Positions 37,265 to 60,983 of a stretch of 64,000 nt of DNA are shown here, piece by piece (within the stretch, counting starts at the first letter, position 1; each line of letters opens with the position of its first letter). Position numbers and translations under genes: made by a program. Under the pieces are notes generated by a model. It worked only from the letters and a program-made list of their open reading frames with translations. It had not been told where the DNA came from and made no database searches. The DNA lies in contig OZ004587.1 of assembly GCA_963924555.1 (NCBI GenBank), positions 7,580,075 to 7,644,074 of the forward strand, given 5' to 3'. The stretch is from Crambe crambe (lineage: Eukaryota; Porifera; Demospongiae; Poecilosclerida; Crambeidae).

Positions 37265-39179
37265 CTAGCTACGAGATTCTGTTTTTCGTTTCTGGATCAC
37301 AAATATCAGTGTCACTATGAGAAGGATGACTAGAGTGATTCCAACCAGCCCTCCAAAAATTCCACCACCAATGGCTCCAGCAGGATCAACACTACCACCA
37401 GCTGAAAGATGGTATTACATGAGAGCATGTATAAGGCTATCGTAGAGGCAAGTCCATTACCCTCTACCCGAGTAAACTATACACATCTAATCAGTGATAA
37501 GTATGACACCATCATAGGCGGAGGAAGCAAAATAAAAGTGGGGGGGGGGGGGGGGGGGGGCCAATGTAGTCTAGCTATGTATTGTACTTTAACACAATTA
37601 TCATTATAACTATTATGGAAAAAAATAAAGTGCATGTACAGCTATTACAGCTAAAAGTCACCAAAAAAAATTCTTCCTCCTATCATTAACTTTGATAAAT
37701 TCTTTAGTAATAGAGTTTATATATGTAATGTAATGCTGACTAGCTGGTTTACCTCACATGACCAGCAAAAAAATGGGGGGGGCCATTATATATTAGAGTA
37801 AAAAAGTGGGGGGGCCATGGCCCCGGCCCCCCTTTTCCTCCGCCTATGACCATAATTATTGATCACTCACTTTTAATTTCACAGATCTGTCCAGTGTATC
37901 CTGCATCACAGGTACATGTAACTCTACCAGGTGAATCCAGGCATTGTCCATTTCCACTACAGTAATTGACTGACTCACAATTAACAATGACTGTTTCACA
38001 CATCTGTCCCGTGTAGCCTTGGTTGCAGACACATGTGTTGAACCCACTAGGTGAATTTCGACGACAATGACCATTTTCACTGCACACACAATTAACAATG
38101 ACTACTTCACAAGTCTGTCCAGTGTAGCCTTGGTTGCAGGCACATGTGAACCCACTAGGTGAATTTTGACATCGTCCATTTCCACTGCAGTCAACTGACT
38201 CACAATAATCAATGACTGTTTCACATGTCTGTCCAGTGTAGCCTGGGTTGCAGACACATGTGAACCCACTGGGTGAATTTTGACACTGACTATTTCCAGA
38301 GCAATTTGCACCAGTGCAGTTGTCAATTAACTGGCAGAAGCTTCCAGTAAGCCCTGATAGACCACAATCAGCACAGTTCCGAAAGTCTTGACAATGATTT
38401 GTGCAGTCTGGACCATAATAGTCAGCAGCACATCTGACATTGAAGCTAACACTCAACTCTGCAAATCCAGCTTCTCCTCTATAAGTCATTTGGGGACTGG
38501 ATGTACCCATTGTAATGTTAATGTCTATAGGAAAACTATCAATCAATGTACTGTCATACGCAATTCCATCTGTTATTATTCCATCTATTGCCACAATAAA
38601 GAACTGAGTTCCCTGCAAAAAGTGATCATTATTAGTATCGTTAATGTGTAGATGCTAATACGTACTCTCCATGATTCATTAAATGTTCTTGTCACTGGAT
38701 TTGCAGGGATGAAATCAAGGTTTTGTCCATTGGTAAAATTCAATGAATTTGTGTCGATTTTAACATACACTCCAAAGTCACCGGCAGCCAATTCTTCATC
38801 CATACAATCCATATGATTAGCTCCAAGGGGTCTGATGCAGTAACCTATTACTGTATCACAGGTAGAACTAAAGTCACATCTTTGATTTTGTGGTCTAACG
38901 AAGGTTTCATCACAGCACCCACGATTAGTAGTGTAGGGCGGGCAATACACACACCTCCCAGACGGGTTGTTGTAGGAGTAAAAGGTTACTTCAATCACAT
39001 AACGTCCAGATACAGCATGTACCTGTGAAGCGAAGCCGTGTATGATGTTTAGCTAGTTACCTTATCACTTGCATGATGTAGCTAGCTAGCTAGTATTTCA
39101 TGCTCTAAGCTTACTACTGTTTAGAGCTTACCAAGAAATCAATGAGAAGTAATTGCAACGGCTTGGAACCATAAAACAT
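37265..39179 (-). CDS. Delta-like Notch ligand (MNNL-DSL-EGF, transmembrane), 4 exons, 427 aa
   Basis: Exons 39,179-39,132, 39,022-38,666, 38,612-37,871 and 37,401-37,265. All junctions are GT/AG with matching phases (0, 0, 1). Exon 1 gives a signal peptide (MFYGSKPLQLLLIDFL) completed by VHAVSG. Exon 2 holds an MNNL-like region (GRYVIEVTFYSYNNPSGRC, then CC) and ends at NESWR, continued by GTQFFIVAI, the usual end of MNNL. A compact DSL follows at about 196-228: VRCAADYYGPDCTNHC with six cysteines but shorter loops than bilaterian DSLs. Four EGF repeats (NSPSGFTCVCNPGYTGQTCE type) follow. The third is irregular yet in frame. Exon 4 encodes a Gly-rich stalk, one membrane helix (GGLVGITLVILLIVTLIFVI) and a short basic tail QKRKTESRS. 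Delta ligands bind Notch on neighbouring cells. Assigning it to Delta rather than a generic EGF protein rests on the MNNL and DSL patterns. Confidence 0.82.
37513..37848. mobile_element. CATAGG...CCTATG element in Delta-like intron 3, 5-bp target duplication
   Basis: Ends are CATAGGCGGAGGAA and TTTTCCTCCGCCTATG, near-perfect inverted repeats, flanked on both sides by ACCAT. Internally it holds runs of G next to each end (about 20 G at 37,541). It fills most of the 469-base intron and stops 22 bases from the 5' splice site. No coding capacity, so a non-autonomous DNA element; superfamily not assigned. Confidence 0.85.
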
Positions 39180-39755: not shown

Positions 39756-40411
39756 TCTCTATTAGTTTGTCGTCGAAGACTTCGCTTACACATAATTATT
39801 GTAGCTTTGAAAAGGTAAGCAGCTAGAACTAACTTATCCCATACTTACTTTGATATGGCATAAGAGTTAGCTATGAACATGATAAAATCAAAATTTTAGC
39901 TATGTTAGAAAAAGAGTCTTGTCCACAGACTAAGCTATTTGTATGCTAAACTTGTCAGCCACATTGGCTGATTGTAGCCATTTTCCATTATACAGCATGG
40001 CCACGTCCACCTCTCTGAGAGATAATTTATCTAAGGCAGATCACTATGAAGTCTGTAAGAGTCTGAAGGTCTTAAACACTGAACAGTTGATAGAACTGGG
40101 CACTGCTCTTGGTCTGGATTTTGCCAACCTTAAGAAGATGAAGGACCTGCCAGGAGATATGGTGCATGCCTGGCTCAATGGGATGGACTATGTGTTGAAA
40201 AAGAGTGGCTCTCCATCTTGGACATGTTTAATCAAGGCCCTAGACAGTGTTGGTCAGGGAGGGGTTGCTTCCACTATCAGGAAAGGTAAAATATTATACC
40301 AGGGACAAGGTTTATTTAATCTATAGCCACTTTTAAATAGTGGGTATTTGGAATTATTTTTAGCAGGGCTGTAGCTAAGAGTGATAATTTGCGTAGCCGA
40401 CCTTACCAACT

Positions 40412-40844
40412 CAGGGGTGCTGGAAGCTATTTTCGACTGAGGGGGCACTCCCATCATTGTACAGTGCGCATTTCATGATCATTCAAATATATTATACAAA
40501 CAACATTATGGAAGATTAGTTATTATTGATCACACCAAAAAATCTTTTTCTTCTATCATAATGCTGCTATGAATTCGTTAGCTATGGCATTAAGGTCTAT
40601 TATTATGTTTTACATGCAAGAGCATTATATTGTTGAAATCCAGCCAGTTAAAGAACACTGCTTAGCCTTATCTGAACAGGTACAATAAGCATGCACCTGG
40701 CAATATACTTTAATGTACAGCGTTGCTAATTTAGCAATTTACTGACTGTGCTTGCTATATTAAGGAGTGCCCCCAAGGCCCCCCCCCCCATCTCAAAATC
40801 TGGGGGCCCAGTGCCCCCTTGGCCCCCTGCTTCCAGCACCTATG
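40412..40844. mobile_element. CATAGG-type element in intron 1, 5-bp target duplication CAACT
   Basis: Left end CAGGGGTGCTGGAAGC and right end GCTTCCAGCACCTATG are inverted repeats (the left CATAGG has decayed to CAGGGG), flanked by CAACT on both sides. The related inverted segment at about 36,030 lacks the insertion, showing an empty site. Confidence 0.8.
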
Positions 40845-41680
40845 CAACTGTGAGGGAAGGAAAGGGTCTGAGAACATGCTATACTAGTAGTTGTTCCATA
40901 GGAATGCAATTATTTTGTGCATGCGTGACATACGTCACACGTACACACGAGTCAGCAAAGGATATAAGAAACTTGAAACCTACTGCAGCTCCTTCCCTTG
41001 GAGTCATCTTAGAATGAAGGTCTCTCATGAAGGAGGTAATGGAGAGTCAAAGGTTTATCTTGGAATATTATGAAAAACTTGGGAAGATATTCCTGCATGT
41101 GCACCAGAATGCCGCAATGTACGAGTGGGAAATGGCGTTGTCTTCATACACTTAATGACGTCATTACGTGGAATATGATTACTAATCGCTGGTGCTTTTG
41201 GGGATGGCATTAACAACTACTAGTATAGCATGTTCCCAGACCCTTTCCTTCCCTCGCAGTTGGTAAGGGTCAGCTACGCGAGAGTATAATTTGTAGGAGG
41301 CAAGGACCAAACTCTGGTCCAGAGGGTCTGAGAGCTTAATAATTTTGAGAGAGCTGAGAGATTTCACATAAAATATTCCAATGGAAAGTAAGGAGCTATT
41401 AGCCTGTATCCTAACCAGAAAGAGCAAGGCTCTGATGGTGCTGCATCATGGTAGCTATTGTTATATCACTAGCTAACCTGATTAAGGAGATGTATAAATA
41501 TCGTACCTCACATGCTATTGCCTCATACCCTGGCACGTGCTATTGCTATTGCATGATGTCCATGTAGCAACATAAGCTATAGGCATAATGAAGAGCTGGA
41601 TTTGATGAATAAGAAGAACTGCCATAATTATGATGAAGGAATACATGTACCTATGTTATTCCACTGGCTGGATGTCTATA

Positions 41681-41822
41681 GCCCCATTTACACTGGGGTT
41701 CTAACCCGGATTCGCTTCGCATGTGAATGGATTGCAATCCGGGTAGCCCAACCCACATCAATTAGGTGGGTTGGAATCTGGATTGAATCTCAACCCGGGT
41801 TGGGTGCACGTGTAAACACGGC
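41681..41822. mobile_element. 142-bp inverted-repeat element
   Basis: Left GCCCCATTTACACTGGGGTT and right TGCACGTGTAAACACGGC pair imperfectly (GCC..TTTACAC / GTGTAAA..GGC), and inner AACCCGG words are also inverted. It is non-coding and lies in intron 1 of the Death-LRR gene. Confidence 0.65.
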
Positions 41823-42274
41823 TTATGATGTTTGAACTTCTCTGTGAATATTTCATCTGTGAATAATTAAATCAAATTCATGTAACTACATACAATCATG
41901 CTCTCCACTGCAGTTTATGTGTGCTTTCTCAGATGATCATTTTGCTCTCACTAGTGAGCCGGCCCATGCATTAAAGGTCTAATGTTCATGCATGCATAAA
42001 TATGGACATAGTTGCTTCCAGTACTACACCTCGGTACTTCAGTGCTGAGGCAAAAATATTTCAGTTGCCAACCCATAACTATGTTGTGCTCCTTGTAACA
42101 ACTTCCCACACCCACAGAACGTATATCCAACGATGCTCCAAATGGAACATCCAAGAGAATTACCTCTACTATAGCCACACCCACCCCATCTCTTGAACCC
42201 AGTGACTCTTCCTCCCTCTTGATGCGGTCATCTCATCAGAGCTCTTCTGAAACAAAGTCATGTAAGTTTATGAC

Positions 42275-42386
42275 TACACTGTAAAAAGAAATGCGTAAAA
42301 ACAAGGTTATAGTTATCTGAGTTGCAATTTTGCAACTCAGATAACCTAAAAATGGGTTATTTTTACACATTTCTTTTTACAGTGTA
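42275..42386. mobile_element. 112-bp near-perfect palindrome starting TACACTGTAAAAAG
   Basis: Arms TACACTGTAAAAAGAAATG and CATTTCTTTTTACAGTGTA close on a central palindrome GTTATCTGAGTTGCAA / TTGCAACTCAGATAAC. Starts 13 bases after the 5' splice site of exon 2 of the Death-LRR gene. Typical of a small fold-back DNA element. Confidence 0.85.
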
Positions 42387-42649
42387 AGTAATTCGTTTTA
42401 ATTGACAAATACTTCTACCAGTGAGTCGGGACAGTTTCTTTATAATTATTGATTGCACTAGTTACAAAGTTGGAACTCCTGCCTGATAATTCTCATGCAT
42501 GTACACTAAATTAATTATTACTGATACTCTAATCAGTAGTTATACTCAATTGAATTTTGTTGCAGATTCACCCAATTCATCCTAGATCTACATCAATTTG
42601 CATATACACTTGCTAACAGTTCTTAATAGCTACGTATGTACATAACTTG

Positions 42650-43017
42650 TAGTCTGGTGTAGCCAGCCCCAGGCACTTCCGGAACTCCAGCGCAAGGGTC
42701 TGGTAACACACAATACTTCGACTTGTTCCTGTTTAGCAGAAATCCTGCTAAAACGATGAATATCATTAACTGACGCGTTATGATGTTTAATGACGTGGGT
42801 AGCTATAACAACCATAATTATTACGGGATCGGGAGGCCATTTTTTCTTTGCGCGAGATGTTGCTATGACAATTAAACAAGACAACGTCATTTTACGACAC
42901 TAAAACGTCATATTACGTAAATAAAAAATTTAGGCCGGGAACAAGTCGAAGTATTGTGTGTTACCAGACCCTTATGCTGGAGTTCCGGAAGTGCTTGGGG
43001 CTGGCTGCGCCAGACTA
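42650..43017. mobile_element. TAGTCTGG fold-back element with 9-bp target duplication
   Basis: Ends TAGTCTGGTGTAGCCAGCCC and GGGCTGGCTGCGCCAGACTA (allowing for local mismatches) begin ~85-base inverted arms. The 9-base word CATAACTTG flanks both sides. A 9-bp duplication with long arms is the hallmark of Mutator-like (MULE) elements. No transposase inside. Confidence 0.85.
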
Positions 43018-43100
43018 CATAACTTGATCACACAGTTTACTTAGCTATTATTTTAAATCGGTATAGAAGTTGAAAGCAAATTGCTGGCAGTAATGGAGCT

Positions 43101-43254
43101 ATTAGTATAGGTAATCACATGCTTTTGAGTGCAATTTGGGTATAATTGCATGAGAAACTGGCTAGGTAATTGCACAAGGCGAGTGCAATTTTAGACAAGT
43201 TTTGAATGAATGCAATACCCAAATTACACTCAAAAGCATGTGATTGCCTATTAA
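43101..43254. mobile_element. 154-bp palindromic element
   Basis: Arms ATCACATGCTTTTGAGTGCA (left) and its reverse complement (right, ending in GATTGCCTATTAAT) enclose a short core. A one-sided relative lies at 39,470-39,540. Confidence 0.75.
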
Positions 43255-43560
43255 TCATATGGTAGATTACTTGTATCAGCCAGGCAGCTGCATGTAGGAA
43301 GCTGTTGGCTAATAATATATGAACCTGTAATGCTTGCCACAAAACGCCTAGTGGGTGGCCAACAATCCACTTAGATAAGCCTAGCACCTACAGTTCACTT
43401 TGAAAAATGTTGTAGGAATAAATCAAGCTAGCCTACCATCTTAAGAAACATGTTAGCTATTATTTGTCTGCACATGTGCAGATGTAGGATAAAACCATAA
43501 TTGCACGTGAACTAAGGAGGGAAAATGTATTAGTAAATATTAACCATATGATTAGTATAG

Positions 43561-43690
43561 GCAATGTTAGCTGTGGTATTTGGGATTAATAGCACGAATA
43601 ATGCAGGGGTAATAGCGTGAGGCGAAGCCGAGTGCTATTTACTGCATTACAAGTGCTATTAATCCCAAAATACCACAGCTAACCATGCTA
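43561..43690. mobile_element. 130-bp palindromic element
   Basis: Arms TTAGCTGTGGTATTTGGGAT and ATCCCAAAATACCACAGCTAA enclose AATAGCGTGAGGCGAAGCC. Non-coding; lies in intron 2 of the Death-LRR gene. Confidence 0.75.
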
Positions 43691-46271
43691 TCACATGCTA
43701 ATAGTACACTGTTCATAATAGCCAAAGTAGTAGCTCTACTTCTGCTTCTGGCTAACTTAGCCCATCAAAAATGACTGTATATCTGGGCAGAAGAAGGAAT
43801 AAGGCCACGGCATAGCTAACTAGTAGTTTTCTTGTAGCTAGTACTTAGTTGGTTGTTGTTTTCATAGCTAGTAGTTAGTGGTTGTTTCTAGCCAATTATA
43901 CGCATGCGCATTAACACGGAGCAAGCACTTAGCAGATTAGCTATGAATTTCATTAAGATAGCTGTAATCGTTTATGTAGTTTACTGTACAAATGATTTTG
44001 AACTATTATGTAGCTGTGCATTGTGAGCAATAAACATTTCAGCTAGCTACAGTATCTATCATCTAGCTATTTTCTTAAGTATGTCATATGCAGTCTCATC
44101 CTTGAGTCTTGAAGAACAAATCCAAAGCTTGGAAGATCAGTTTAGTGAAATTGCATTGCAAACATTTGATAAAATAAAAGAGAGAAAACTCGATGTTGGC
44201 CAATTTAGAGCATGTCTAGTTACTGTACCGATCAAGTATCGAGAGCACCATGAGGAGTTTTTCCAGCGGCTAGAAAGTGATATAGAGAGAGACACAAGCA
44301 TAGATCGTATTTGGATGAAGTTGAGCCGTTACTGGGATTTCCTCAACTACACACTCCTGGAGAATCTGGTTAAAAGGTTTGGGGATGACACCCTCAAATC
44401 TGACATGGATAATTATGTGAAGAGACTTAAAGAGTTTCGATCCACCACTCGTGTGTGCATCTTTGCTAAGTATTGTACCAAAGTCAATAAAAAGTTGTCA
44501 GAACATGATTTACAAGACTTCATTCTCAAGTTTAAAAAAAAATGTTGGGAGGAATGCACATTGGAGGATTTGGAAAACGTGAAGGAAAATATTTCTCATA
44601 AATTCTTCCTCCCTTCATTTGTGATGAATTTGAAAGACATTCAACCAGGATCCATCGTAGTCACCTGGACACTCCCGACAGTTATTGCATCAGCCATCAT
44701 GGAAATTCTTGAAACCACATACGTGAGTGAATTTTGTAATGAGAATAGAATCGAAAACATCACAATCGATGGTTATGAGATTATTTACTCACCAAGTAAA
44801 GACTATGAAGCATATGAGGCCTTCTTGAAGGACATCAATTTCACAATGAAGGGATTTGATGCTTCAAAACTGGGTCCAATAATGGAGAAATACAGATGTG
44901 GAGATGTATATGTACATGCTTCAGGATTGGTATATGTTCATTTTAGATCCTCATAGACCCCACTTGATTACTATAGTCTTGGATATGCTCTAGCCAACTC
45001 TCCATTGAAATGGGCATTAAACTTATTATATTCTTCCATGGGAGATGAAGGGATGAAGGCGATGTGTAGGGGAATGTTGAAGTGTACGGAACCATCAGAA
45101 TCAGGACAGGATGTATATGCATACTTTGGAGATATGTCTGTGGAGAGTCTAAAGTGGTTTGTGAAAATGCCTCATCACCTTCTTCAACGAATAGTGTCAC
45201 TGCATTTTTATCGTAGCAAATTGGATAAGAAAGCTTTGGGTCTACTTTCACAAGTCATCCCTGCACTGTCTAGGTTAGAGATATTAGATCTTTTCAATAA
45301 TCCCATTGGTGAGGGGGGAGCAGTGGAGCTCATGAGAGCTCTCTCTCACTACAAGGCTCCATTGAAGAAGTTGTATTTGCAGGGGACATCTCTTAGAAAA
45401 GAAGACATACAAGCACTCTGTGAAGTCCTGGCTGACAATCATATAGAACTACTAGCCATCGATGGCCCCATCATCTCCATTATGAGACTCCATGTTCAAA
45501 CAATCAGAGTCAAAACTCTTCATGTTGGTCCACCTATGTCAGTGGATAACTGCACATCCTTGGCATCACTACTCAAGCATTGTACGTGTCAGTTGAAGGA
45601 GTTGGATATTTCCAGATGCAGTATTAATAGTGATGGAGCTGTTCAACTAGCAGCTGCACTAAGTGAGAACAAGTCAGTGGTGGAAATCAATATGTCGTGG
45701 AATAAAGACATCGGAGATGTTGGAGCAGGTGCTTTTGGGAACATGCTGAGGAGGAACGCAGTACTACGAGAACTTTATTTGAGTCATTGTGGAATTACAT
45801 CTCAAGGTTGTGATCGGTTGGCAGGAGGAGTAAGAGCGAACTCAACATTACAAGTGTTGGACTTGAGTGATAATGTATTAGGAAGGGAAGGAGTTTACCT
45901 GTTGTTAACTAGTTTACAAAACAACACGTCTTTGAAGAAACTCATCCTACCACAAATATACAAGCAACCAGCAGACCCTAGAGTGGAATGGAGTGAAGGT
46001 GAGGACAGTGTGAACATGTTATGTGTGTGTGTTTGTGGTACAATATACTATCAAATGAGGGTAAGTTATGTTATAGCTGATACTGCTGCTTCTGTAAGTA
46101 TTGAGTACTGTATTCCTGGTGTTTGTAGCTATGTATCTCCACTAATGGCTAATCGTGCTTTTATTCATAGATTTCCTTCAACTATTAATGACTCCTCGTA
46201 GCTCAGTTGGAGGTGAGCATACTAGCAATATTTAGTTGCATATATAGTTTCTAACCACGATCTAATAACAG

Positions 46272-46680
46272 ATACTCGTTCATCATCTTCTGACTATGGT
46301 TCGTCACGATCCTCATCTTCTGGCTATGGTTCATCACGATCTTCATCTTCTGGCTATAGTTCATCACGATCCTATTATTCTGACTATGGTTCATCATTTT
46401 CTGGCTATGGTTCATCACGATCTTCATCTTCTGGCTATGGTTCATCACGATCTTCATCTTCTGGCTATGGTTCATCACGATCTTCATCTTCTGGCTATGG
46501 TCAATTACGATCTTTATCTTCTTCATCACGATCTTCATCTTCTGGCTATGGTTCATCATGATCTTTACCTTCTGGCTTTGGCTATGGTTCATCACGATCC
46601 TATTATTCTGACTATGGTTCATCATTTTCTGGCTATGGTTCATCACGATCATCTTCTGGCTACAGTTCATCACCCAGAAA
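46272..46680 (+). repeat. 30-bp coding repeat (SSRSSSSGYG) in exon 4 of the Death-LRR pseudogene
   Basis: About twelve variants of a 24-30 base unit around GGCTATGGTTCATCACGATC. They encode Ser/Tyr/Gly/Arg repeats in the splice-supported frame. The His/Leu and Met/His/Gln repeat frames on either strand are shadows. The in-frame TGA at 46,559 arose at a CGA codon, the signature of CpG decay. Confidence 0.85.
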
Positions 46681-47274
46681 GTACATTATATCTAACAACA
46701 TGCATATTTGAATGCTCTGTTCTTCATTTTGTATAACATAGGTTGCATGAAACATCTCCTGATAAGCACAGCATATCACCCCTAGTATCTTCACTCAGCT
46801 TAATAGGTGAGTGTACTGACACATATATAGCTACTCCATGCATAGAAATAACATTAATCCATATAGAGCCTCCACAGCCATCCCCCCACTCCAAACTGCA
46901 GTCTACCTACCATGCTATATAACATATGATACAACAGCCAGCCAAAACTCCTGAAGCCCCAAAATCTAAACTAGAGTCCTCGAAAGAAGAAAGTGAAGAC
47001 TGGACACGGTAAGCCACCACAGCCCACCAATAGCTTACTCAATGTATCATAATAATTATGTAGGCCTTTAAGAGTCCCAAGTCCTCCACTGCCACTTGAA
47101 GAAAGTCCCCCACTGCAACCACACCCACTAAAGGAAAACAGGTATAAACTATCAGTCTGGCTAGCTATCTACCATATCAGACTTCACTAATAATCATAGG
47201 TCTGACTCCCTGTCTCCAACCTCAAGATCTCAAGTATGTACAAAACCACAACCACACAAAACCTTCTAGTGGAG

Positions 47275-48556: not shown

Positions 48557-51500
48557 ATGACAGAGTCCAAGGAGTATTCCACTATCGTCAAGTGTAGCAG
48601 GAAGCTGGAGATTGCTCTTAAAAATGACAGAGAAATAGTACAGTTCCTTCATGAGCAGGGACTCATCACAACAGATGATTATGATGTTGTCAGCAGTCCA
48701 ATATCAAGATTCCCTCCTGCTGAGAAATCTAGCGTACTGGTGGCTGCAATCAGAGATCGAATTGAACTTCATCCTCGCAATTACCATGTAGTGGTCAACT
48801 ACATGTGCCAGAACAGCACAAGATACAGAGACATTATAGAGATTCTAGATAAGGAATATCAGGGAGAAACAGTAACACCAAACTCTATGATGGCCATACC
48901 CACCTCTCCTTCTGTACCCAATTTACCCTCCAAAGGAGCCACCTTTATGCTGGCCATCCCACCCAGTGGTAGCTCCTTATCAGCTTCCATGACACAATCC
49001 TCCACTGAAGGTGCCACAGTATCCAATGACAACTCAGGTGAGATACGTATACTTATTTAGCTATCAGTGGGTGGACACAGTCTGAAAAAACCAGTAGTAA
49101 TAGTGTCCATGTTTAACTTTTTAACCTACACTCTATTTAGCCTATACATTTTATCATATTGGGTAAATGTACTATAGCAGAAGAGAGATTTCCTTATCAG
49201 AACAAGCACAATGAAGTAGCTAACTATAATCAGAGAGTGCGGTAGCACTCTCTATGTAGGGATGACTCGGACGGCCGCGCGCGCCGCCTATAGACTAATA
49301 CAAAAGTGAAATTCTAGTTCTCCCACTTAGACTTAACAAAAGCTACTGTGAATGATCATCCAGCCTACTACAATGTGCAGACCCAGGGAGCTTACCGTTT
49401 CAGAAATACGGCAAGCAGGTAAATCGCTGGATTCTTCTTCTTCTCTATTATCAGAGAGTGTGGTAGCACTCTCTATGTGTACGTGTAGGGATGACTCGGA
49501 CGGCCGCGCGCGCCGCCTATAGACTAATACAAAAGTGAAATTTTAGTTCCCCCACTTAGACCTAACAAAAGCTACTGTGAATGATTATCCAGCCTACTAG
49601 AGCCTACTACAATGTGCAGACCAAGTTTCAGGACCGGGGAGCTTACCGTTTCAGAAATACGGCAAGCAGCATAGGCGTAGGAACCAGGGGGGCTGAGGGG
49701 GCTATAGCCCCTCCAATATTTCTAGTTAATCAGTACAGTTATTCCGATAATTATTGTGTAAGGGTTAAAGGTGCAGTGCAAAATCAAAATCTAGCTATAG
49801 CTAATTGGCCTCCAAGATATGGTTAAAATTTTGCTTCGTGCTCCACGCGGCAGGAGGCGCACATCCCCTCCCCACGCTGTGGCCTAACTAGGTGGCCATG
49901 CAGTCCACTACATAGTTCAAAATCTAGCCCCCCCCCAAAGTGAAATTGCTTCCTACGTCTATGACAGGTAAACCGCTGAATTCTTCTTCTTCTATATTAT
50001 TATTATTCTTCTTAGACAACCATCTCTCGAACCACTCAAACTACAGCTATGATTTCTGGATAAATCCACTCCAAATTCTACCAACTACGATCTTTTCTAC
50101 TCGTTGATCCTCGAAAGAGTCGATGAAAAAGGAGACACTAGTCTACGGAGCACAGCATGCACTCGATTAGGAAGCCATCTTTTCGATAATACGCATGCGC
50201 ATGTAATTTTGATATCCAATTATTCGAAATTATTTGAGCGAAGCGAGCGAGCCACACACTTGTGATGCAAATTGAGATTCGCGATATTAATAATAGTTAG
50301 ACAACGAGACAGAGGGATCTACCGTCTGTAGAAACCCGAAGGCCCTGGGCTGTAGCGTCCCGAGCGCAGCGAGGGCACTACTAGGGGCCTGAGGGTGGGT
50401 GTGTATAAACTTCGGACCGGACCGGACCCACGGACCGTGTACGATCTGCGTGGGCGGAGCAAGACGGACCATTGCGCTGCGCTGAAGAATGTAGCTACCT
50501 GAGCAAATGATAATTCATACCTCATGCCTAGAAGCCCAGTTAGATAGCTAGCTAGCTAAACTGTTATATTTGTCTAAATATTGGTAGCTAGCTAGTCTGA
50601 TAGACCACTTGCATCTGGTTCACTATTAATTTTTCTAGAACATTGACTATAGGCTATTTTAGTTAGTCAATTAATGATTGTTCTTTTAACTCTAAAATCA
50701 TTATTTTTCTGATATTCTTTGTGTTCCTAGATCCTGCAGGGAAGGAATAACTAAAAAACAAAAAAACACAACATTATGGTATATCTGACCTGACTGAAAG
50801 AAAAAGGCTGATAAAACACTTGATATCTTGCATACTATACAAAAAAAATTAGCTAGTTTTATATTGATATTAATTGAAGTATTTTTACCATGCATGTGAA
50901 TACACCACAGTCATAACCATTTGTTTGCATATAGGTATTATCCTAATAACAAAAATATAATAAATAACTTGAATAAATTCTTAATACTTTTGGGCATAGC
51001 ATCTTCTGGAGAAGTCTACATTGGGATTTGCCTTGCTTAGGTAATTTCTGAATCAGAAAAGCAGACAATGAAACTCAATGTTGTAATAATAACGTATATG
51101 TTTAGCTATACCTGATTGTTTCCAAGTATCTGATGTATTCGGAGTCATAGTAACGCAATTCCTGCATAGTATAGTGTCTACAATAGCTAGACACCAGTGT
51201 GCACCTCTGTTGATTGGTACTCTTTTTGTATTTGAGAACATTGACCTACGTATGTATGCATGGACATTGTATGAGTGAAAGGCAAAAGCAAACTATCTTG
51301 GAACCTCAATAAAGGAGACTCCAAAAGAGGACAAATCTTTGATAAAGGACAAAATAGAATTCTTATACACATTAGAGGAACAGAAGCAGAACAGAGGGAC
51401 ATTAGCTGATGAAATATGCAGTTTTCAGACTTGGAATGTCCATGAGGAAAGTTTATAGCAACACTTTCATCTCCTATGTAGTTAAAACTTGGTAGAATCC

Positions 51501-54500
51501 AAAAGTAAATGTGGCATGATGCTTAAATCTCAGATCTCTTCGTGAGGGAAAAACGATTGAAAAATAAATTTTAGATCACCGCTAGGAATCAATTTGGTCC
51601 CATTCTGGTACAAGTGATAACCATCGTCATCTACAGAATAAGTATGGTGGTATGAAAAGAAGTTAAGGAAGCTCACTTCAAAAAAACTGGATTAAGTAAA
51701 GATTTACTTCTCGACCATTTGCATTCCTAGGAGGTTTGCATTCCTAGGAGGATAGGTGGGGTTAAGATTTGTATTTTGCTTAAAATACTTCAAAACATCA
51801 GTAAACTTTAGTTCTTCATTGCTTCCATCCTTTAGCTGGCAAAAAAGAACAGCAGCGGGCAAATCATGGTCCGCCTCGCTCCGCGCACGCAGATCGGTCA
51901 CGGTCCGTTGGTCCGGTCCGGTCCGAAGTTTATACACACCCCTGAGGGTTTCTACAGACGGTAGATCCCGTTGGTCGAGGTGTCTAACTATTTTAGAACA
52001 TGCCAATAACCTTGACAATAACCTTGACAACCTAGCGCTATAGCTAGCTAGCTAGTTTCAAATACTCGGCATGGGGTGTATATATGTAGACTTACCTATG
52101 CCCTGAGAGGAGGTAAGTCTATATGTAGACACCTCCCAGTAAATAAGTGAACTGGTCTACCTCTAACTGACCAATCAGATTGCAGGAATCAATCAAGCCA
52201 TGTTCTAAATATATTTATTCTTACAGACCACGCCCATTAGTACATTTTCCCCATAGACGAGCCTCATATTCCAACGATATACTACGCATGCGCAGACTAG
52301 CCTAGTATCCTTTTTGGCCGACATTTCTGAAGTTGATAGGCAAGCTTAATTGAATCTTACAGCGGTTTGTCGAAGCGCATTAGTTGTTTGTAGGGCCCCG
52401 GTAGGCTGCTAGGCTTATCTAAAGTGCTTCGTGGTGAGTATTACAGGTTCTCATAACAGCTTCCTACAGACGTATGTTTATATGATGGCTATAAACATAG
52501 TCTGGCATAGCACCGCCCACCAACTTGAGTAGGTGGTCTGGTGACATACAATACAACGAGTTGTGCTGGTGGATTCTACTGCGCACGCGCGTTACTAACA
52601 GGAAGTGTCGTAGGAAGCGGTATTATATAATTAGCCAGTGACATCACAGTTGTCATAGTTATTCTTAATTTAATTAGTAGGTACAATTTTAGCGCGCGAA
52701 CTTACAGGAAAAGGCGCCAAGTGTTGCGTAATTTTACGTCATTAAACGTCATTTAATGATATTCATTGATTTAGCAGGTTTCCTGCTAAACGGCACAACT
52801 CGTTGTATGTATTGTATGTCACCAGACCACCTACTCAAGTTGGTGGGCGGTGCTATGCCAGACTACTATAAACACTCCTTAGACTTGTTGTTGTGACATA
52901 TGTTGTGCACTGTAAGAATAAATCACTTATTACACTCGTCAGCTGTGAGATATGGCGAGATATTTCACTCGCCTTCGGCTCGTGAAATATCTCCCCATAT
53001 CTCACGCTGACTCGTGTTATATATGTGACAGTACTTGGGAAAAGGTACCTTTCGCGCAGAAATTCAAAACGGAGTTATTGGTATCATTCTAAAGCTCTTA
53101 ATCTGGAGATTTACATGGCTTTTAAATCAAATTAATACTCCATTTTGTTCCTGAGTTATACTTAATTGAATTTTACATCTCATGTACATTTTATATGTAG
53201 CTTGTAAACTTTACAAGCGTTTAACAGCTTTTAATGTTTTGGGCGAAAAGGTACCTTTTCCCAAGTACTGTCACTTATAGCTAGTGGGCATAGTTAATAA
53301 TATGCATGCGCACGTTCGTTTGATCTTTGACCCCACAAATGAAGCTTGCCCATAGCACGTACTTAGAACAACAGCTAGAGCTTATTGCTTTCTACAGCAT
53401 TTGTCATAGAGGCGCTAAGTGGATTGTAGGCGCTTGGCTTTCTAAGTGTTTGTGGTAAGCATTATACAGCCTCCTGTGTATGCAGCTGCCACAACCACTG
53501 CAATATCTTAGCCCAATAAGTCAAAGTTGTACTTTCACCAACTGCTTCGCTCGCTCGCCGATTAAATATGTTACACGAATATACCCTAGTAATATTACTC
53601 ATCTGTCTCTAGCTAGCTAGCTAGCTAGTCTCAGCCCAGCCCCCACCCGGAACGGAGAGGGGGCTGGGCCAAGACCATAGATATATGACACGGAACAGGA
53701 TTGGAGACTGATGACGTCACGCGCATGAACTAATACTTTTCCGCGCGTGCCATCCTTGTTGTCACTAATGACGTCATGAGGAGTTAAAGGTAAATACAAA
53801 GGATAAATAAATGTTTGGAAAATAAGTCAGTGAATGAACAAAGAAAAGTCAATAAATGAATGGGAGGAAAAAATAGTTTAGTCCTCATCCAAAAGTTCCT
53901 AATCAGAGGTATGGGTGAATGTCTGATGGCATGTCCAGGTCGACTACGAGCTCCACGGATGCAGGTTATTGCAGATCGTAACAGTGAGAATACCAACCTA
54001 CAGCGCAGCCAGGACATAGTTGCACTGTATGGGTTGTCCCATTTTTGGGCAAGCAGGGCAGCTAAACGTTTGTAAAAAACTGTAGCACCACTAGCCATAC
54101 TGCCAGTGGCAGAGAATATCAGGGGAGTAAATGAGGCATGTTCAATTTCCCTAATTCTTCTTTCATAGCAGTTTCTCTTCTAGGGCTAGCCCTAGCCCTA
54201 GCCCTAGCCCTTGTTGTCACTAATTGTTACCCTGCAACGTTGTTTTCAATGGCCGTTGTTATAATTACTTTGTGGGGGTGTGCCAGACTTTCTATCGGGT
54301 TTTGAGAATAGGTAAGAACATGAAAAAGTGTAGAAAATGCTGCTTTTTTACTGCAATAGCTGGTTTGTGAGAAATTTATGATAAAGATACTTCCTAGAAT
54401 AACCTTTTAGAGTTTTAGAATGTAGTAGTTTTGTGGGGGTCCATTTCATAAAATATATAAGTTGACTAATTGGAACCATTTAATTAACAATTAATTAATT

Positions 54501-57500
54501 AACAACCAGAATAAGCATGCACAGGTTCTTTAAAGAGTCCTATAAATAGTGGATACATGTAAGCTATACACATAATGTAATGAACTGTTTGCATGTAGAA
54601 ATGGGAGGAAGGTACCTCAACTCTACTTCCATGGCAGCAAACAAGGAGAACATAGTGTCACTGATGTAAATGAGACCCCTCTCTATCCACCAGATCCATC
54701 CACTGTTCTGATATGGTTCGCTATAAAGAAATTGGAGGCCTCGTAGTTAGCTATTTTAAAGTACTACCAGATGTTTTTGGATGCACTAGTTCATTAGTTA
54801 AACTTATGTATCTGTTGCAAATATCCTGGAACTATGATACAACTTCACTAGCTACATGGTGACTCTTGGTGGCCACCCTTGGACTATTGCTTTTGTCAAG
54901 GCTTATAGGTCCATTACAAAGGAGCTGGCAACTATCATGGCTTCACCCCTTTTCATTCAACAACTTCTCTGCACCGTACCGGAGACTGCATTTTTTTCCC
55001 CGGCTTCCTTCATCACTTGCAGAGGTGGAGGAAGATCATTTCAATTGGGGGGGGGGGGGGGGGGCACTTCGATGTGTATAAGTGTGAAGAAAACATTCTT
55101 ATCACAACAATTACAAGCTAGCATGCAAGATATACAGTACAGGACACATTGCCATTGTGAAAAATTTGTGCCCCAGTGGTTCCTCTGCCTCTGAGTCTTG
55201 GGAAATTGCAGCCCTAAACAGCTCCTGACACTCTAAAAAGTACAACTGGTTGTAACTATAAAATCTATTCTCCTACCTGTATATCCAAGACTTGAGTTCC
55301 CAGCCTAGTCTGGCGCAGCCGACCCTTTTCCCAGCCATTGTGCAGCAAATGAAACACTATTTTCAATTTTTACCGCCACTTGGCGCGCTTGCACTAGTGA
55401 CAACGAGGATGGCACGCGCCTCAAGGCTTAATTGGAGAAGTAACCAATCCTGTTCCATGTCATATATCTATGGCCGAGACTAGCCCTAGCCCTAGCCGGC
55501 CCTAGCCCTCTCCTTTCCGGGTGGGGGCTGGGCCGAGACTACTAGCTAGCTAGCTGTAGGCTCTAGACATAGATAATTTAGTATAGATTATCTATGCTCT
55601 AGATAATGATGATAGACTACTGTATTGACTCGGGGATTTAGATTCACCACGGTAGACTCTATTTCAGCATCTTCGACCTCCAAGTATAGCTCAACGATAA
55701 CACAACACCTTGACTCGTTGATTGGGCTGGTATGCTATTGGAGAACTATTCTTCTTTCATCTGTCCCTGCATACACATAGAAGAATGAACGCTAAAACCA
55801 TAAAAAAGACCAGGAACAAGTAAGGGAAAAAGCATTTCTTGAAGTGAAAAAAGATATAGGGATGACCACTGCTCAAAAAAGTAAGGAAACAAGAAGGATG
55901 GAATCTTTCTTCTGTATATCCAGCCAACAATCCCTACATATACGTCGGGTAGCTTCAAATTATAGTGTAGTAATGTACGTATATGTAGGGATTGTTGGCT
56001 GGATATATATACAGAAGAAAGATTCCATCCTTCTTGTTTCCTTACTTTTTTGAGCAGTGGTCATCCCTACATCTTTTTTCATTTCACGAAATGCTTTTTC
56101 CCTTACTTGTTATCAGAGAGTGCGGTAGCACTCTCTATGTAGGGATGACTCGGATGGCCGCGCGCGCCGCCTATAGACTAATACAAAAGTGAAATTCTAG
56201 TTCCCCCACTTAGACCTTACAAAAGCTACTGTGAATGATTATCCAGCCTACTAGAGCCTACTACAATGTACAGACCAAGTTTCAGGACCAGGAAGCTTAC
56301 CGTTTCAGAAATACGGCAAGCAAGTAAATCGCTGGATTCTTCTTCTTCTCTATTATTATTCTTCTTATTATTCTTCTTAGACAACCATATCTCTCGAACC
56401 ACTCAAGCTACAGCTATGATTTCTGGATAAATCCACTCCAAATTCTACTAACTACGATCTTTTCTACTCGAAAGAGTCGATGAAAAAGGAGACACTACGG
56501 AGCACAGCACTCGACTAATTCAATTACACCGATTTGCAGGTCGGTTGTCACAAAAAGGTCGTCAATTTGCACGCATGCGTGTTGAATTCCATTGGTTTTG
56601 AATTGAGATGAACGCGCATGCGTACAAATTGACGACCTTTTTGTGACAACTGACCTGCAAATCGGTGTAGTGGAAGCCATCTTTTGTATGTATTTGATAT
56701 CCAATTATTCGAAATTATGATATTACTCAGCTATCTGTAGCTAGCTCTACGTGTATCAACTCGGGGATTTAGATTCACCAATCCATCTACGGTACCGGTA
56801 GACTCTATTTCAGCATCTTGGACCTCCAAGTATAGCTCAACAATGACACAACACCTTGACTCGTTGATATGATTGGGCTGATGCTATTCTTAGTATTGGA
56901 GAACTATTCTTCTTTCATCTGTCCCTGCATACACATAGAAAGAATGAACTCTATACATAGCTAAAACCATAAAAGAGAGGAAAAAAGATCAGGAACAAGT
57001 AAGGGAAAAATCATTTCCTGAAATGAAAAAAGATGTAGGGATGACCACTGCTCAAAAAAGTAAGGAAACAAGAAGGATGGAAATGGGATCAATCTTTGTT
57101 CTGTATATCCAGCCAACAATCCCTACATATACGTACATTACTACACTATAATCTGAAGCTACCCGACGTATATGTAGGGATTGTTGGCTGGATATACAGA
57201 ACAAAGATTAATCCCATTTGCATCCTTCTTGTTTCCTTACTTTTTTGAGCAGTGGTCATCCCTACATCTTTTTTCCGAAATGATTTTTCCCTTATAGATA
57301 CTCAGAGAGTACTTAATTGTTACGTGTTATGATTAGCTACACTGTATTATGAATTCTCAGAGTATTCTCAGTCTGCAACTATCACACCCACACCATCTCT
57401 TCATTCATCTGTTCCTCCAAATGAACGATCCAAAAGAACCACCTCCACTGTAGCTACACTCACTCCATCTCTTCTTTCCAATGACTCTCTTCTTTCGACA

Positions 57501-60500
57501 AGAGCTCCAAATGAACCATCAGAAAGAACCAACTCTACTGTAGCCACACACTCCATCTCTCAAACCTCCCTCTTGATGAGGTCACCTTCAAAGAACTCTG
57601 AAAGAATGTTGAATGAAGACAACAGTGAGTCTACAATAATTACTTAGTCATTAGCTATAATAATCAGTTTCACAGCAAAAAGATTGTGTAATTTCAAACT
57701 ATTGTCATTATGTCACATACAGCATCCCCCTATTCTCCAACCGAAATTCTTGAAGACCAAATCCAAAGCTTGGAAGATCAGTTTAATAAAATTGCTTTGA
57801 AAACATTTGATAAAATTAAGAAGAGAAAACTCGATGTTAGCCAATTTAGAGCACGTCTAGTTACTGTACCGATCAAGTATCGAGAGCACCACGAGGAGTT
57901 TTTCCAGCGGCTGGAAAGTGACATAAAGAAAGACACAAGTATAGATCACATTTGGATGAAGTTGAGCCGCTACTGGGATTTCCTCAACTACACACTCCTG
58001 GAGAATCTGGTTAAAAGGTTTGGGGATCACAAGCTCAAAGTCAAAATGATAAATTACGTGAAGCAACTAAAAGAGTTTCGATCCACCACTCGTGTGTGTA
58101 TCTTTGCTAAGTATTGTACCAAGGTCAATAAAAAGTTGTCAGAACATGATTTACGAGATTTCATTCTCAAATTTAAAAAAAAATGTTGGGAGGAATGCAC
58201 ATTGGAGGATTTGGAAAATGTGAAGGAAAATATTTCTCATAAATTCTTCCTCCCTTCATTTGTGATGAATTTAAAAGACATTGAACCAGGATCCATCGTA
58301 GTCACCTGGACACTCCCAACACTTATTGCATCAGCTATCATGGAAATTCTTGAAACCACATATGTGAGTGAATTTTGTAATGAGAATGGAATTGAAAGCA
58401 TTATGATCGATGGTAAAAAGATTATTTACTCACCAAGTAAAGACTATGAAGCATATGCGGCCTTCTTGAAGGACATCAATTTCACTTCAAAGGAAAAGCA
58501 CTTTAATGCTTCAAAACTGTCTCCAATACTAGAAAAATACAGATGTGGAGATGTGCGTGTATATCCTTCAGAATTGGTATCTGTTTTTCCTATATCCACA
58601 TGGAGTCCATTCAATTACTATAGTCTTGGATATACTCTAGCCAACTCTCCATTGAAATGGAAATTATCCTTTTATTCATCCATGGGAGATGAAGGCCTGA
58701 AGGAGATATGTAGGGGAATGTCTGAGAGCTCAGAACCATCAGAAATCGGACAGGAAATACATGCTTACTTTAGAGGTAATATTTCTGTGGAGGGTCTCAA
58801 GTGGTTTGTAAAAATGCCTCATCACCTTCTTCAACGAATTGTGTCACTGGACTTCTCATTTAGCAAACTGGATAAGAATGCATTAGATCTCCTTTCTCAA
58901 GTCGTCCCTGCACTGTCTAGGTTAGAGGTATTACGTCTTTCCTTCAATCCCATTGGTGAGGGGGAAGCAGTGGAGCTCATGAGAGCTCTCTCTCACTTCA
59001 AAACTCCTTTGAAGGAGTTGAGGTTGCAGAGGACGTCTCTTGGAGAAGAAGATATACAAGCACTCTGTGAAGTCCTGGCTGACAATCACATCAAGGAACT
59101 AGCCATCGATGCCCCCACCATCTCCATTATGAAACTTCATGTTCACACAATCAAATTAAAAACTCTTCGTATTTATTCACCTATGTCAGTGGATAGCTGC
59201 ACATCCTTGGCATCACTACTCAAGCACCATACATGTCAGTTGAAGGAGTTGTATATTTCCATATGCAGTATTAATAGTGATGGAGCTGTTCAACTAGCAG
59301 CTGCACTAAGTGAGAACAAGTCAGTGGTGAAAGTCAATATAGGGTGGAATGAAAACATTGGAGATGTCGGAGCAGGTACTTTTGGGAACATGCTGGGGAA
59401 GAACACAGTACTACGAGAACTGAATTTGAGTTATTGTGGAATTACATCTCAAGGTTGTGGTAGGTTGGCAGGAGGAGTAAGAGCGAACTCAACGTTACAA
59501 GTGTTGGACTTGAAGAATAATCGATTAGGAAAGAAAGGAGTTGACCTGGTGTTAACTAGTTTACAAAGCAACACAACTTTGTCGACACTCATCCTACCAC
59601 GAATATACAAGCGACGACAAGCAGATCCTAGAGTGGAATGGAGGGGAGGTGAGGACAGTGTGAACATGTGTGTGTGTGTGCATGGTACAGCATATATAGC
59701 TACTATCAAATGAGGGAAGTTATATTATAGCTGATACTACTACATTTGCACAGAGATACATACATAGCTACACAGTCAATAGTTTCTAACCATGATCTAA
59801 CAACAGATACTCGTTCATCATCTTCTGGCTACAATTTATCACAATCCTCATCTTCTGGCTCTGGTTCACCACAATCCTCATCTTCTGGCTATGGTTCATC
59901 ACTATTCTCATCTTCTGGCTATTCGTCTTTATCTTCTGGCTATGGTTCATTGCGATCCTCATCTTCTGTCCATGGTTCATCATCTTCTGGCTATTCATCA
60001 CAATCCTCGTCTTTATCTTCTGGCTATGGTTCATTATCCTCATCCTCTGGCTCTTCATCACGATCTTCATCTTTATCTCCTGGCTATGGTTCATCGCGAT
60101 CCTCACTATCCTCATCTTCTGATTCTGGCTATTCATCACAATCCTCATCTTTATCTTCTGTTTATGGTTCATCACAATCCTCACGATCCTCATCTTCTGC
60201 TGACATAACTTCAGCAGTGGATACATTTTCCTCTTCCTCATCAGGTAAGCAATTACTTAATTATAAGCATTGAACACTATATTCTTTATTCAGGTTCCCC
60301 ACCTTCATCACTACGCGAATCATCAGCAGTAGATAAAATCTCACCCAGGAGGTACATAGATGAAATTAAGCCACTGTACAACAGTTAAATCTTTTGAATG
60401 CTCTGTTCTTATACATTTATCATAATATAGGTTGCATAGAACATCTCCTAGTGAAGGAATTCATGGCATATCACCCCTAGCATCATCACACAGTTTAAGT

Positions 60501-60653
60501 GGGTGTACTGACAGAGACACTATAGCCCCACGCAGCTACCAATATTTAATATTTTATTCTGTAGGATTCCCACGACCATCACACTCTAAAGTGCAGCACA
60601 AGACCTCAAAAAAGAAGGCACATGATCAAACTTCACCTCCAAGTCATCATTGA
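48557..60653 (+). CDS. CARD-helical-LRR-SYG-tail NLR-like gene lacking NACHT, 6 exons, 1129 aa
   Basis: Exons 48,557-49,037, 57,361-57,624, 57,723-59,648, 59,807-60,244, 60,294-60,351 and 60,431-60,653 join without a stop; the first four introns are all phase 1. Exon 1: CARD (LEIALKNDREIVQFLHEQ, GLITTDDYDVVSS) and start of a Ser/Thr/Pro linker, continued by exon 2 (two APNEPSERTNSTVAT-type repeats). Exon 3: helical domain at about 255-490 (YWDFLNYTLLENLVKRFGD, CTLEDLENVKENI), then straight into WSPFNYYSLGYTLANSPLKW and LRRs (about 625-880). In the full NLR at 31.5 kb, WSLLDYYGVGY follows the NACHT and winged-helix part, so about 350 residues are absent here. Exon 4: 146 residues of Ser/Tyr/Gly repeats. 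The tail ends basic (KTSKKKAHDQ). The role is inferred: without an ATPase it cannot form a classical inflammasome wheel; it may be a decoy, co-receptor or condensate-forming adaptor. Confidence 0.85.
49228..50160. repeat. Repeated 'gcggtagcactctctatgtag' units and associated tail in the long intron
   Basis: Two ~205-bp units (about 49,228-49,430 and 49,453-49,660) with the CpG-rich core CGGACGGCCGCGCGCGCCGCC are followed by a ~170-bp tail (about 49,970-50,145, contains ATTTCTGGATAAATCCACTC). One further unit plus tail is at 56,113-56,500. A 294-base CATAGG-type element (49,670-49,963) sits between the second unit and its tail. Confidence 0.8.
49670..49963. mobile_element. CATAGG-type element nested in an older repeat
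   Basis: Ends CATAGGCGTAGGAACC and CTTCCTACGTCTATG. The host repeat continues on either side (compare 49,405-49,425, where no insertion is present). The flanking duplication is less clear here (GCAG / ACAG). Confidence 0.75.
50294..51990. mobile_element. 1.7-kb inverted-repeat element in the long intron
   Basis: Left arm from TAGTTAGACAACGAGACAGA and right arm ending TCGAGGTGTCTAACTA are inverted copies over roughly 150 bases, including GGATCTACCGTCTGTAGAAA and the CGGACCGGACCGGA run. The interior (50,520-51,830) is AT-rich and carries only a family B fragment (51,295-51,360), so it is a non-autonomous element. The terminal TA may be the target duplication. Confidence 0.75.
52498..52865. mobile_element. 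TAGTCTGG fold-back element, second copy, 9-bp target duplication
   Basis: Ends TAGTCTGGCATAGCACCGCC and GGCGGTGCTATGCCAGACTA are perfect inverted repeats that continue for ~95 bases; CTATAAACA flanks both sides. Same length (368 bases) and ends as the copy at 42,650, though the arms differ. Confidence 0.9.
52926..53274. mobile_element. Two adjacent fold-back elements
   Basis: First: 52,926-53,023, arms GAGATATGGCGAGATATTTCA and TGAAATATCTCCCCATATCTC. Second: 53,025-53,274, arms GTGACAGTACTTGGGAAAAG and CTTTTCCCAAGTACTGTCAC with an inner GGTACCTTTCGC / GCGAAAAGGTACC. They abut almost base to base. Confidence 0.8.
53626..55541. mobile_element. 1.9-kb composite with TAGTCTC inverted arms and 9-bp flanking repeat
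   Basis: Left arm starts TAGTCTCAGCCCAGCCCCCA and the right arm ends TGGGGGCTGGGCCGAGACTA; the arms are inverted copies over ~160 bases (shared words TGACGTCA/cactagtgacaac, CATATATCTATGG). CTAGCTAGC lies on both sides, although low complexity there weakens the point. Inside are a CCCTAGC microsatellite (54,182-54,210), an old retroelement piece (53,850-54,175), a G18 run (55,047) and a second TAGTCTGG end at 55,306. Confidence 0.6.
53850..54175 (-). mobile_element. Fossil fragment of a retroelement-type protein C-terminus
   Basis: A short minus-strand piece resembles a conserved C-terminal segment that I recall from mobile-element polyproteins of marine invertebrates (words such as FYKRLAALLAQK and SLLRSAITCIRGARS). 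The family cannot be settled from this fragment. It is broken and only a few percent of any full element; nothing upstream in the window continues it. Confidence 0.5.
55628..56112. mobile_element. Long-hairpin element, copy 1
   Basis: From 55,814 to 56,112 the DNA is one long imperfect palindrome: AACAAGTAAGGGAAAAAGC at one end and its complement at the other, with arms of ~130 bases (inner word TTGTTGGCTGGATATA). A leader of ~185 bases (GGGGATTTAGATTCACCACG) precedes it and is repeated before copy 2. Confidence 0.85.
56113..56500. repeat. Third 'gcggtagcactctctatgtag' unit with tail
   Basis: Same unit and tail as at 49,228-50,160, here without an insertion between them. It directly follows the hairpin element. 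Confidence 0.8.
56525..56670. mobile_element. 146-bp fold-back element (TACACCGATTTGCAGGTC)
   Basis: Arms TACACCGATTTGCAGGTC and GACCTGCAAATCGGTGTA, extended by CACAAAAAGGTCGTCAATTTG and its complement; short central loop. It interrupts a repeat tail whose continuation is seen at 50,150-50,240. Confidence 0.85.
56759..57293. mobile_element. Long-hairpin element, copy 2
   Basis: Same leader and ~300-base palindrome as copy 1 (56,993-57,293), ending 68 bases upstream of exon 2 of the CARD-LRR gene. Arms contain AAGTAAGGAAACAAGAAGGA and its complement. Confidence 0.85.
59807..60244 (+). repeat. Ser/Tyr/Gly coding repeat (exon 4 of the CARD-LRR gene)
   Basis: Degenerate 24-30 base units (TCTTCTGGCTATGGTTCATC) encode runs such as SSSSGYGSS and SSLSSGYGS with no stop. 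Phase 1 on both sides, so the exon can expand or be skipped without breaking the frame. The composition resembles prion-like low-complexity domains of RNA-binding proteins. Confidence 0.85.
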
Positions 60654-60761: not shown

Positions 60762-60983
60762 ATGGCCGAGCATCTGACACTATCTTTGGCAGATCATTTT
60801 GAACTCTGTAAGAGTCTGAAGGCCTTAAACAATAAACAGTTGAGTGAACTGGGCACTGCTCTCGGTCTGGATTATGCCAACCTTCAAAGAATGTATACTC
60901 TGCCAGGAGATATGGTGGATGCCTGGCTCAAAGGAGTGTATAAACTCTTCCAGGAATCACTGGCTGCATATGCAATTAGCTAG
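60762..60983 (+). pseudogene. Shortened Death-domain exon, 73 codons
   Basis: Starts MAEHLTLSLADHFELCKSLK and continues ELGTALGLDYANLQRMYTLP, GDMVDAWLKGVYK, a clear relative of the Death exon at 39,997. It then diverges (LFQESLAAYAIS) and stops, missing the last two helices (PSWTCLIKALDSVG in the relative). It begins 108 bases after the stop of the CARD-LRR gene. It could still be expressed as a small half-domain, but the family context suggests a relic. Confidence 0.7.

Follow-up and report, generated by a model that had tools for sequence, protein, structure and literature searches.

A putative lineage of NLR derivatives without the NACHT module in the sponge Crambe crambe

Gene 3 and the NACHT-less junction

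The stretch of Crambe crambe DNA analysed here (the window: 64,000 nucleotides, contig C10, C10:7580075-7644074, in a genome of 143 Mb and 119 contigs) carries three genes of interest on the plus strand, gene 1 (31497-35114), gene 2 (39997-47269) and gene 3 (48557-60653). Gene 1 is a full NOD-like receptor (NLR), in which a helical domain, a NACHT module and leucine-rich repeats (LRRs) lie in one exon, and gene 3, the subject of this report, combines the helical domain with LRRs and lacks NACHT. Six exons of gene 3, 3390 bases in all, join in frame to 1129 codons and a stop with no internal stop, and all five introns (8323, 98, 158, 49 and 79 bases) run from GT to AG, which reproduces exactly the model of the first-pass annotation of this DNA. 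Below, L009-L016 denote the eight NACHT-less helical-LRR loci and other L numbers further helical-domain loci in the genome. Positions without a contig prefix are those of the window.

48557-49037, plus strand: gene 3 exon 1, CARD-like N-terminal domain (about residues 1-105) and the start of a Ser/Thr/Pro linker; open frame and GT donor
57361-57624, plus strand: exon 2, Ser/Thr/Pro-rich linker, phase 1-1; similar linkers lie near gene 2, L010, L013, L014 and the copy on contig C13
57723-59648, plus strand: exon 3, pre-NACHT helical domain fused to the post-NACHT segment and LRRs, without NACHT; uninterrupted frame, alignment and Pfam
58510-58603, plus strand: junction region, the site of the NACHT module in NLRs, its last residue being the Trp of STWSPFNYYSLGY; eight NACHT-less and eight NLR exons aligned, by eye
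59807-60244, plus strand: exon 4, Ser/Gly/Tyr low-complexity tail, a degenerate 30-base minisatellite (SSSGYGSSRS unit); repeat analysis
60294-60351, plus strand: exon 5, C-terminal; open frame and splice sites
60431-60653, plus strand: exon 6, C-terminal, ending in TGA; frame
31497-35114, plus strand: gene 1, full NLR for comparison, with a CARD-like exon and a helical-NACHT-LRR exon, NACHT at about 32895-33314; Pfam and frames

Above the curated cut-offs of Pfam, the 1129-residue gene 3 protein gave LRRs only (LRR_6, E 1.4e-15; ten repeats were marked by hand), and gene 1 (31.9-35.1 kb) gave NACHT (E 1.1e-13) and LRRs. A tblastn search of 144 kb with the 444-residue NACHT sequence of gene 1 matched only gene 1 itself and one remnant at C10:7683038; no match was obtained within 48,557-60,653 on either strand at E up to 1e-3, and the same query found nothing in 16 kb round each of the copies on C9 and C13. 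These results confirmed that the helical domain runs straight into post-NACHT sequence inside one exon. The first-pass annotation had described a missing ATPase, and NACHT is indeed absent, but the loss is wider: everything between the helical domain and the post-NACHT segment is gone, a module of about 440 residues in gene 1. The ends of this deletion, which were to be sought by aligning exon 3 with NLR exons, fall in the junction region at 58510-58603 (16 exons, by eye). Outside the lost module gene 3 is 49-61% identical to six NACHT-containing genes in the helical domain and 43-77% in the LRRs, which indicates descent shared with the NLRs.

NACHT-less copies, selection and LRR exchange

In a genome search for the helical domain, 150 of 235 candidates were scored and 145 matches listed, the best 30 of which were read in detail; frame length only was looked at in the other 115. 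At least 103 places in the genome carry NACHT above the Pfam cut-off (103 of 232 candidates scored). Among the best 30 helical loci, eight run from helical domain to LRRs without NACHT, ten carry NACHT in one open frame with the helical domain (in one of these, L034, a stop truncates the frame) and twelve are helical-only; at L021 a NACHT region is present with the Walker A motif GAADVGKT (by eye). Six of the eight NACHT-less copies, genes 2 and 3 included, stand in tandem at C10:7.624-7.696 Mb, and one each lies on C9 and C13. Because these eight loci on three contigs share the junction, it is not due to chance or to a single assembly error. The joining region is common to all eight (alignment, by eye), and a three-residue insertion upstream of it occurs in seven copies and in none of the eight aligned NLRs, the eighth copy, L010, being deleted there. 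Their helical domains form one clade, with moderate support on protein (88/88, 30 rows) and 96/98 on DNA (12 rows, six NACHT-less copies included). The helical-LRR exon is uninterrupted in six of the eight copies, the exceptions being gene 2 and L013, which has a frame break in the LRRs.

To quantify selection, Nei-Gojobori counts were pooled over pairs of the five uninterrupted copies L009, L010, L012, L014 and L016, leaving out the C9 copy with its short LRR region and the broken gene 2 and L013. The ratio of non-synonymous to synonymous substitution (dN/dS) was 0.25 in the helical domain, 0.76 in the whole LRR region, 1.51 at the exposed-strand LRR positions (five per repeat; the count covered 48 of 50, as its range stopped short of the final two) and 0.53 in the rest of the LRRs. 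Over seven copies, with gene 2 and the C9 copy included, pairwise dN/dS of the helical domain was 0.17-0.39 at dS up to about 1.1. In six copies including gene 2, the mean number of extra residues per column was 1.67 at exposed-strand positions, 0.29 at scaffold positions, 0.50 at other LRR positions and 0.66 in the helical domain, and the exposed-strand value was reached in none of 20000 permutations. The synonymous difference was 0.30 at the two most variable positions of each repeat versus 0.15 outside the exposed positions, a rise that may come partly from the counting of multiple changes per codon. These patterns argue that the helical domain is under purifying selection and that LRR change is focused on predicted concave-face positions, and the NACHT-less lineage looks functional. 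One clade, a constrained helical domain and position-specific LRR diversification thus bear out the earlier view that the NACHT-less build is a lineage and not an accident.

The LRRs appear to have a history of their own. Gene 3 was compared with the NLRs L032 (C10:7277409, 7.277 Mb), L037 (C6:4357077) and L038 (C8): identity in the helical domain is 49%, with a proportion of synonymous differences (pS) of 0.75-0.81, whereas the LRRs are 76-77% identical with pS of 0.14-0.17, and in sliding windows the divergence switches just before the first LRR. The same holds for the five uninterrupted copies (LRR pS 0.10-0.22, helical pS 0.75-0.85). Against three other NLRs, L021, L035 and L028, LRR pS of these copies was 0.35-0.61, so the low values are not due to a general slowness of the LRRs. 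High helical and low LRR pS together imply the exchange of LRR cassettes with NLRs. As evidenced in the LRR tree, the two classes are mixed, and none (0%) of 200 bootstrap trees grouped the NACHT-less copies together.

Exchange and diversification were also seen among the NLRs. L032 and L037, on different contigs, are 98% identical in the helical domain, yet between the end of the post-NACHT segment and the end of the frame 34 codons show a residue difference and a single codon a synonymous difference alone, suggesting extreme diversification of the binding end. Gene 1 (31959-35114) appears to be mosaic. It resembles L032 closely in the NACHT region, with pS of 0.10-0.22 in six windows out of seven and 0.37 in the remaining one, but is far from it in the helical domain and the LRRs. 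It therefore appears that the modules are moved as cassettes within a single long exon.

Twelve helical frames of about 210-330 codons (L017-L020, L022-L027, L030 and L031) have neither NACHT nor LRRs in frame, and represent either another class without NACHT or individual exons of larger genes. At C10:2914933, the helical match of one locus lies about 0.4 kb upstream of the helical match of a full NLR. Decayed-looking LRR, tail and NACHT fragments are scattered between the copies of the cluster (C10:7668448-7669188, 7691360-7691622 and 7683038-7683533).

Gene 2 and the variable ends of the genes

Gene 2 had been cited as a second gene of the same build, and its features are as follows.

39997-40285, plus strand: Death-like N-terminal exon with a phase-1 donor; at least 150 genomic places match it, its own among them (150 of 333 candidates scored)
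44027-46198, plus strand: helical-LRR frame, with a TAG at 44954-44956 replacing the junction Trp; frame
46226-46680, plus strand: Ser/Gly/Tyr repeat stretch, units at about 46283-46673, with an in-frame TGA at 46559; frame and repeats

The helical-LRR frame and the tail repeats agree with the build of gene 3; the TAG at the junction, the TGA in the tail and the Death-like first exon do not. Removal of the TAG by a 51-base in-frame GT..AG intron (44,906-44,956) is conceivable by eye, but would leave the TGA of the tail. The change of the junction codon from TGG to TAG is itself what provides an AG able to end this 51-base intron (by eye). Gene 2 is apparently either broken or spliced round both stops, and was treated as broken because the tail TGA is present besides the junction TAG. 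Better witnesses are found outside the window, at C10:7671233, 7685740 and 7693883, C9:4952822 and C13:2216546.

The CARD-like exon of gene 3 lies 8.3 kb from the linker exon, and this gap is a weakness of the gene model. A similar linker at L013 is preceded at about 0.2 kb by a CARD-like exon whose donor is in phase 1, so CARD-like exon and linker also occur together in compact form. Upstream of gene 2, L010, L012, L014 and the C9 and C13 copies the exon is Death-like. Both the Death-like exon of gene 2 and the CARD-like exon of gene 3 end in phase 1, which would permit the exchange of N-terminal exons. Just past gene 3, a further Death-like exon (60762-60983) precedes a CARD-like stretch that contains an in-frame stop (C10:7642651-7642890); the two probably mark where a broken neighbouring gene begins.

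The gene 3 CARD-like exon has 93 matching places genome-wide, itself included. Three of them (C1:1679573, C9:7237532 and C9:7273354) overlap places of the Pfam CARD family (PF00619) at E 0.11-0.32, one of which passes the curated cut-off only together with its neighbours. No Pfam CARD match was found in five aligned CARD-like copies, the window copy included, and the CARD name given to this exon is thus backed by weak overlaps elsewhere and not by the exon itself. Pfam Death likewise gave no match in two Death-like copies, and the 150 listed Death-like places do not overlap the 150 scored of 965 PF00531 candidates (by eye). Profile searches of the PDB stayed at chance level (best E 0.77 for the CARD-like, 0.25 for the Death-like and 0.36 for the helical domain), and a PDB sequence search with the helical sequence gave no match. 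The CARD-like and Death-like identities of the N-terminal exons are therefore weakly supported.

At the other end of the protein, a genome-wide search found 23 tail units with two mismatches or fewer, every one on the coding strand of C10:7626360-7687966, and none in the reversed control. Their number varies among copies (eight in gene 2, three in gene 3, three in a decayed copy, five in L010 and four in L012). All 34 units recognised in four tails keep one frame within their own tail. Changes relative to the unit consensus comprised 42 synonymous and 63 non-synonymous, the expectation by sites being 29:52, with 10 further changes scored as stops one step at a time; in these 34 units no amino-acid-level constraint on the repeats was seen. 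The tail was not found in four of the eight copies (C9, C13, L013 and L014), nor was it seen downstream of the NLRs L032 and L038 in the 1.3-1.6 kb read. Downstream of the LRRs, L015 and L016 have open Arg/Ser/Pro-rich stretches and L013 and L014 a third kind (by eye; putative exons). A stretch 54% identical to exon 6 of gene 3 lies at C10:7688054, downstream of the L012 copy. The first-pass annotation had called the gene 3 tail prion-like, and its 145 residues do contain seven [GS]Y[GSQ] motifs. Its composition is, however, Ser 57%, Gly 12%, Tyr 6%, Gln 3% and Asn 1%, and with Gln plus Asn at about 4% we dropped the term and kept that of a low-complexity tail, which is probably an add-on and not the core of the mechanism.

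Between genes 1 and 2, on the minus strand at 37863-39052, EGF-like tandem repeats and a Cys-rich stretch resemble Notch-ligand-type proteins (frames, by eye).

Possible roles and related systems

Combining the trees, substitution patterns and exchange results, we put at about even the chance that gene 3 belongs to a maintained lineage of NLR derivatives that lack the whole NACHT module and act as modulators or co-receptors of full NLRs. The clade, the purifying selection on the helical domain and the LRR diversification agree with the first-pass view of a NACHT-less, NLR-derived and probably ligand-binding lineage. The LRR end would bind the same class of ligand as ordinary NLRs and, as there is no ATP-driven oligomerisation switch, action would pass through the helical and N-terminal death-fold-like domains. 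The protein would most likely be a co-receptor, decoy or brake, working with or against full NLRs, a free-standing trigger being less likely. A modulator or co-receptor is favoured because LRR sequence is shared with full NLRs. More tentatively, these proteins may represent animal receptors free of the ATP switch, derived from NLRs and headed by a death fold, that share and diversify NLR LRR specificities and work by ligand-induced contact, with interchangeable tails tuning assembly.

The main rival, an autonomous scaffold, was the view of the first-pass annotation: an ATP-independent receptor in which ligand clusters the LRRs and the death-fold domains nucleate a filament with help from the low-complexity tail. 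The N-terminal exon and linker of gene 3 are intact, the helical domain is conserved, and the tail is confined to the cluster (all 23 near-exact units found genome-wide), with 34 of 34 units in one frame per tail, all of which such a receptor would explain. The tail is, however, not found in half of the copies, its repeats are low in Gln and Asn and free of visible amino-acid-level constraint, and the death-fold identity is weak, so we regard this proposal as unlikely.

Decay, the second rival, seems still less probable. The copies would then be by-products of NLR tandem duplication, in which NACHT was lost by unequal recombination within the long exon, and would be sustained for the time being by conversion from functional NLRs. 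The two stops in gene 2, the frame break of L013, the shortened LRRs of the C9 copy and the fragments at C10:7668448 and 7691360 are in keeping with this, as is the little constraint on the junction segment. The LRR framework is homogenised with that of NLRs, so LRR diversity could be borrowed. Decay does not readily account for the helical domain, which lies outside the tract shared with L032, L037 and L038 and still shows pairwise dN/dS of 0.17-0.39 at dS to about 1.1, nor for the six of eight exons that are still open. An artefact, with a NACHT exon spliced in or dropped by the assembly, could be suspected from a gene 3 model built from sequence only with an 8.3 kb first intron, but is most improbable given a junction inside an exon and shared by eight copies on three contigs, NACHT in the frame of the helical domain in all ten NACHT-bearing relatives examined, and no NACHT similarity on either strand of 48557-60653.

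Several points weigh against a maintained lineage of modulators. Part of the cluster appears to be decaying, as two of the eight copies are visibly broken, roughly half of the LRRs are missing from the C9 copy and some 36 LRR residues from L010. The junction and post-NACHT segment shows little constraint, with pairwise dN/dS of 0.35-2.45 (seven copies, gene 2 and the C9 copy among them). A tract of low divergence within the helical domain is common to L009 and L014 (pS 0.18 versus 0.48-0.63 before the tract), so the copies do not give independent evidence of selection. Which positions are exposed was judged by hand from the LxxLxLxx repeat pattern and not from a structure, and dN/dS values are pooled pairwise counts. 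In the LRR tree, an approximately unbiased (AU) test does not firmly reject a single NACHT-less clade (p 0.068). Finally, the preference for a modulator over a trigger is itself an inference.

Several known systems offer partial parallels. CARD-only and PYD-only inflammasome regulators are death-fold proteins without NACHT; the gene 3 lineage is likewise motor-less and could cap or seed assemblies, but keeps a diversifying LRR end. Lamprey variable lymphocyte receptors and the LRRs of plant NLRs carry their diversity at exposed LRR beta-strand positions. The same exposed-strand diversity is seen here in germline paralogues of NLR-like architecture, known from the genome only. Fungal NWD2/HET-S represents NLR signalling through a prion fold, and is similar in the idea of NLR-linked signalling by ordered self-assembly of a short segment; it differs from gene 3, whose tail is of Ser/Gly/Tyr low complexity and in which NACHT is absent. 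A literature search on NLRs lacking NACHT returned a fungal match only, with thin coverage of subscription papers, so prior publication is possible.

The closest comparison is with the sponge NLRs of Dysidea avara (NLRC, NLRD and NLRX; PMC12909245). They are similar to the gene 3 lineage in the CARD- or Death-type N-terminal exon, the LRR C-terminus and tandem expansion, and possess the NACHT module that has no counterpart in gene 3. The inventory described there starts from NACHT matches and NLR-like annotation (PMC12909245), so that a gene lacking NACHT would not qualify as a bona fide NLR there.

Surveys that use NACHT as the entry point to NLRs would miss such a lineage, in which Pfam shows LRRs alone above its cut-offs. 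If expressed, these genes would amount to a natural experiment on the function of the NACHT motor, as related helical and LRR modules with and without NACHT are found in one genome. With LRR cassettes exchanged and changes concentrated on the face presumed to bind ligand, the receptor classes would draw on a common pool of specificities, and decoy and co-receptor models could then be tested directly.

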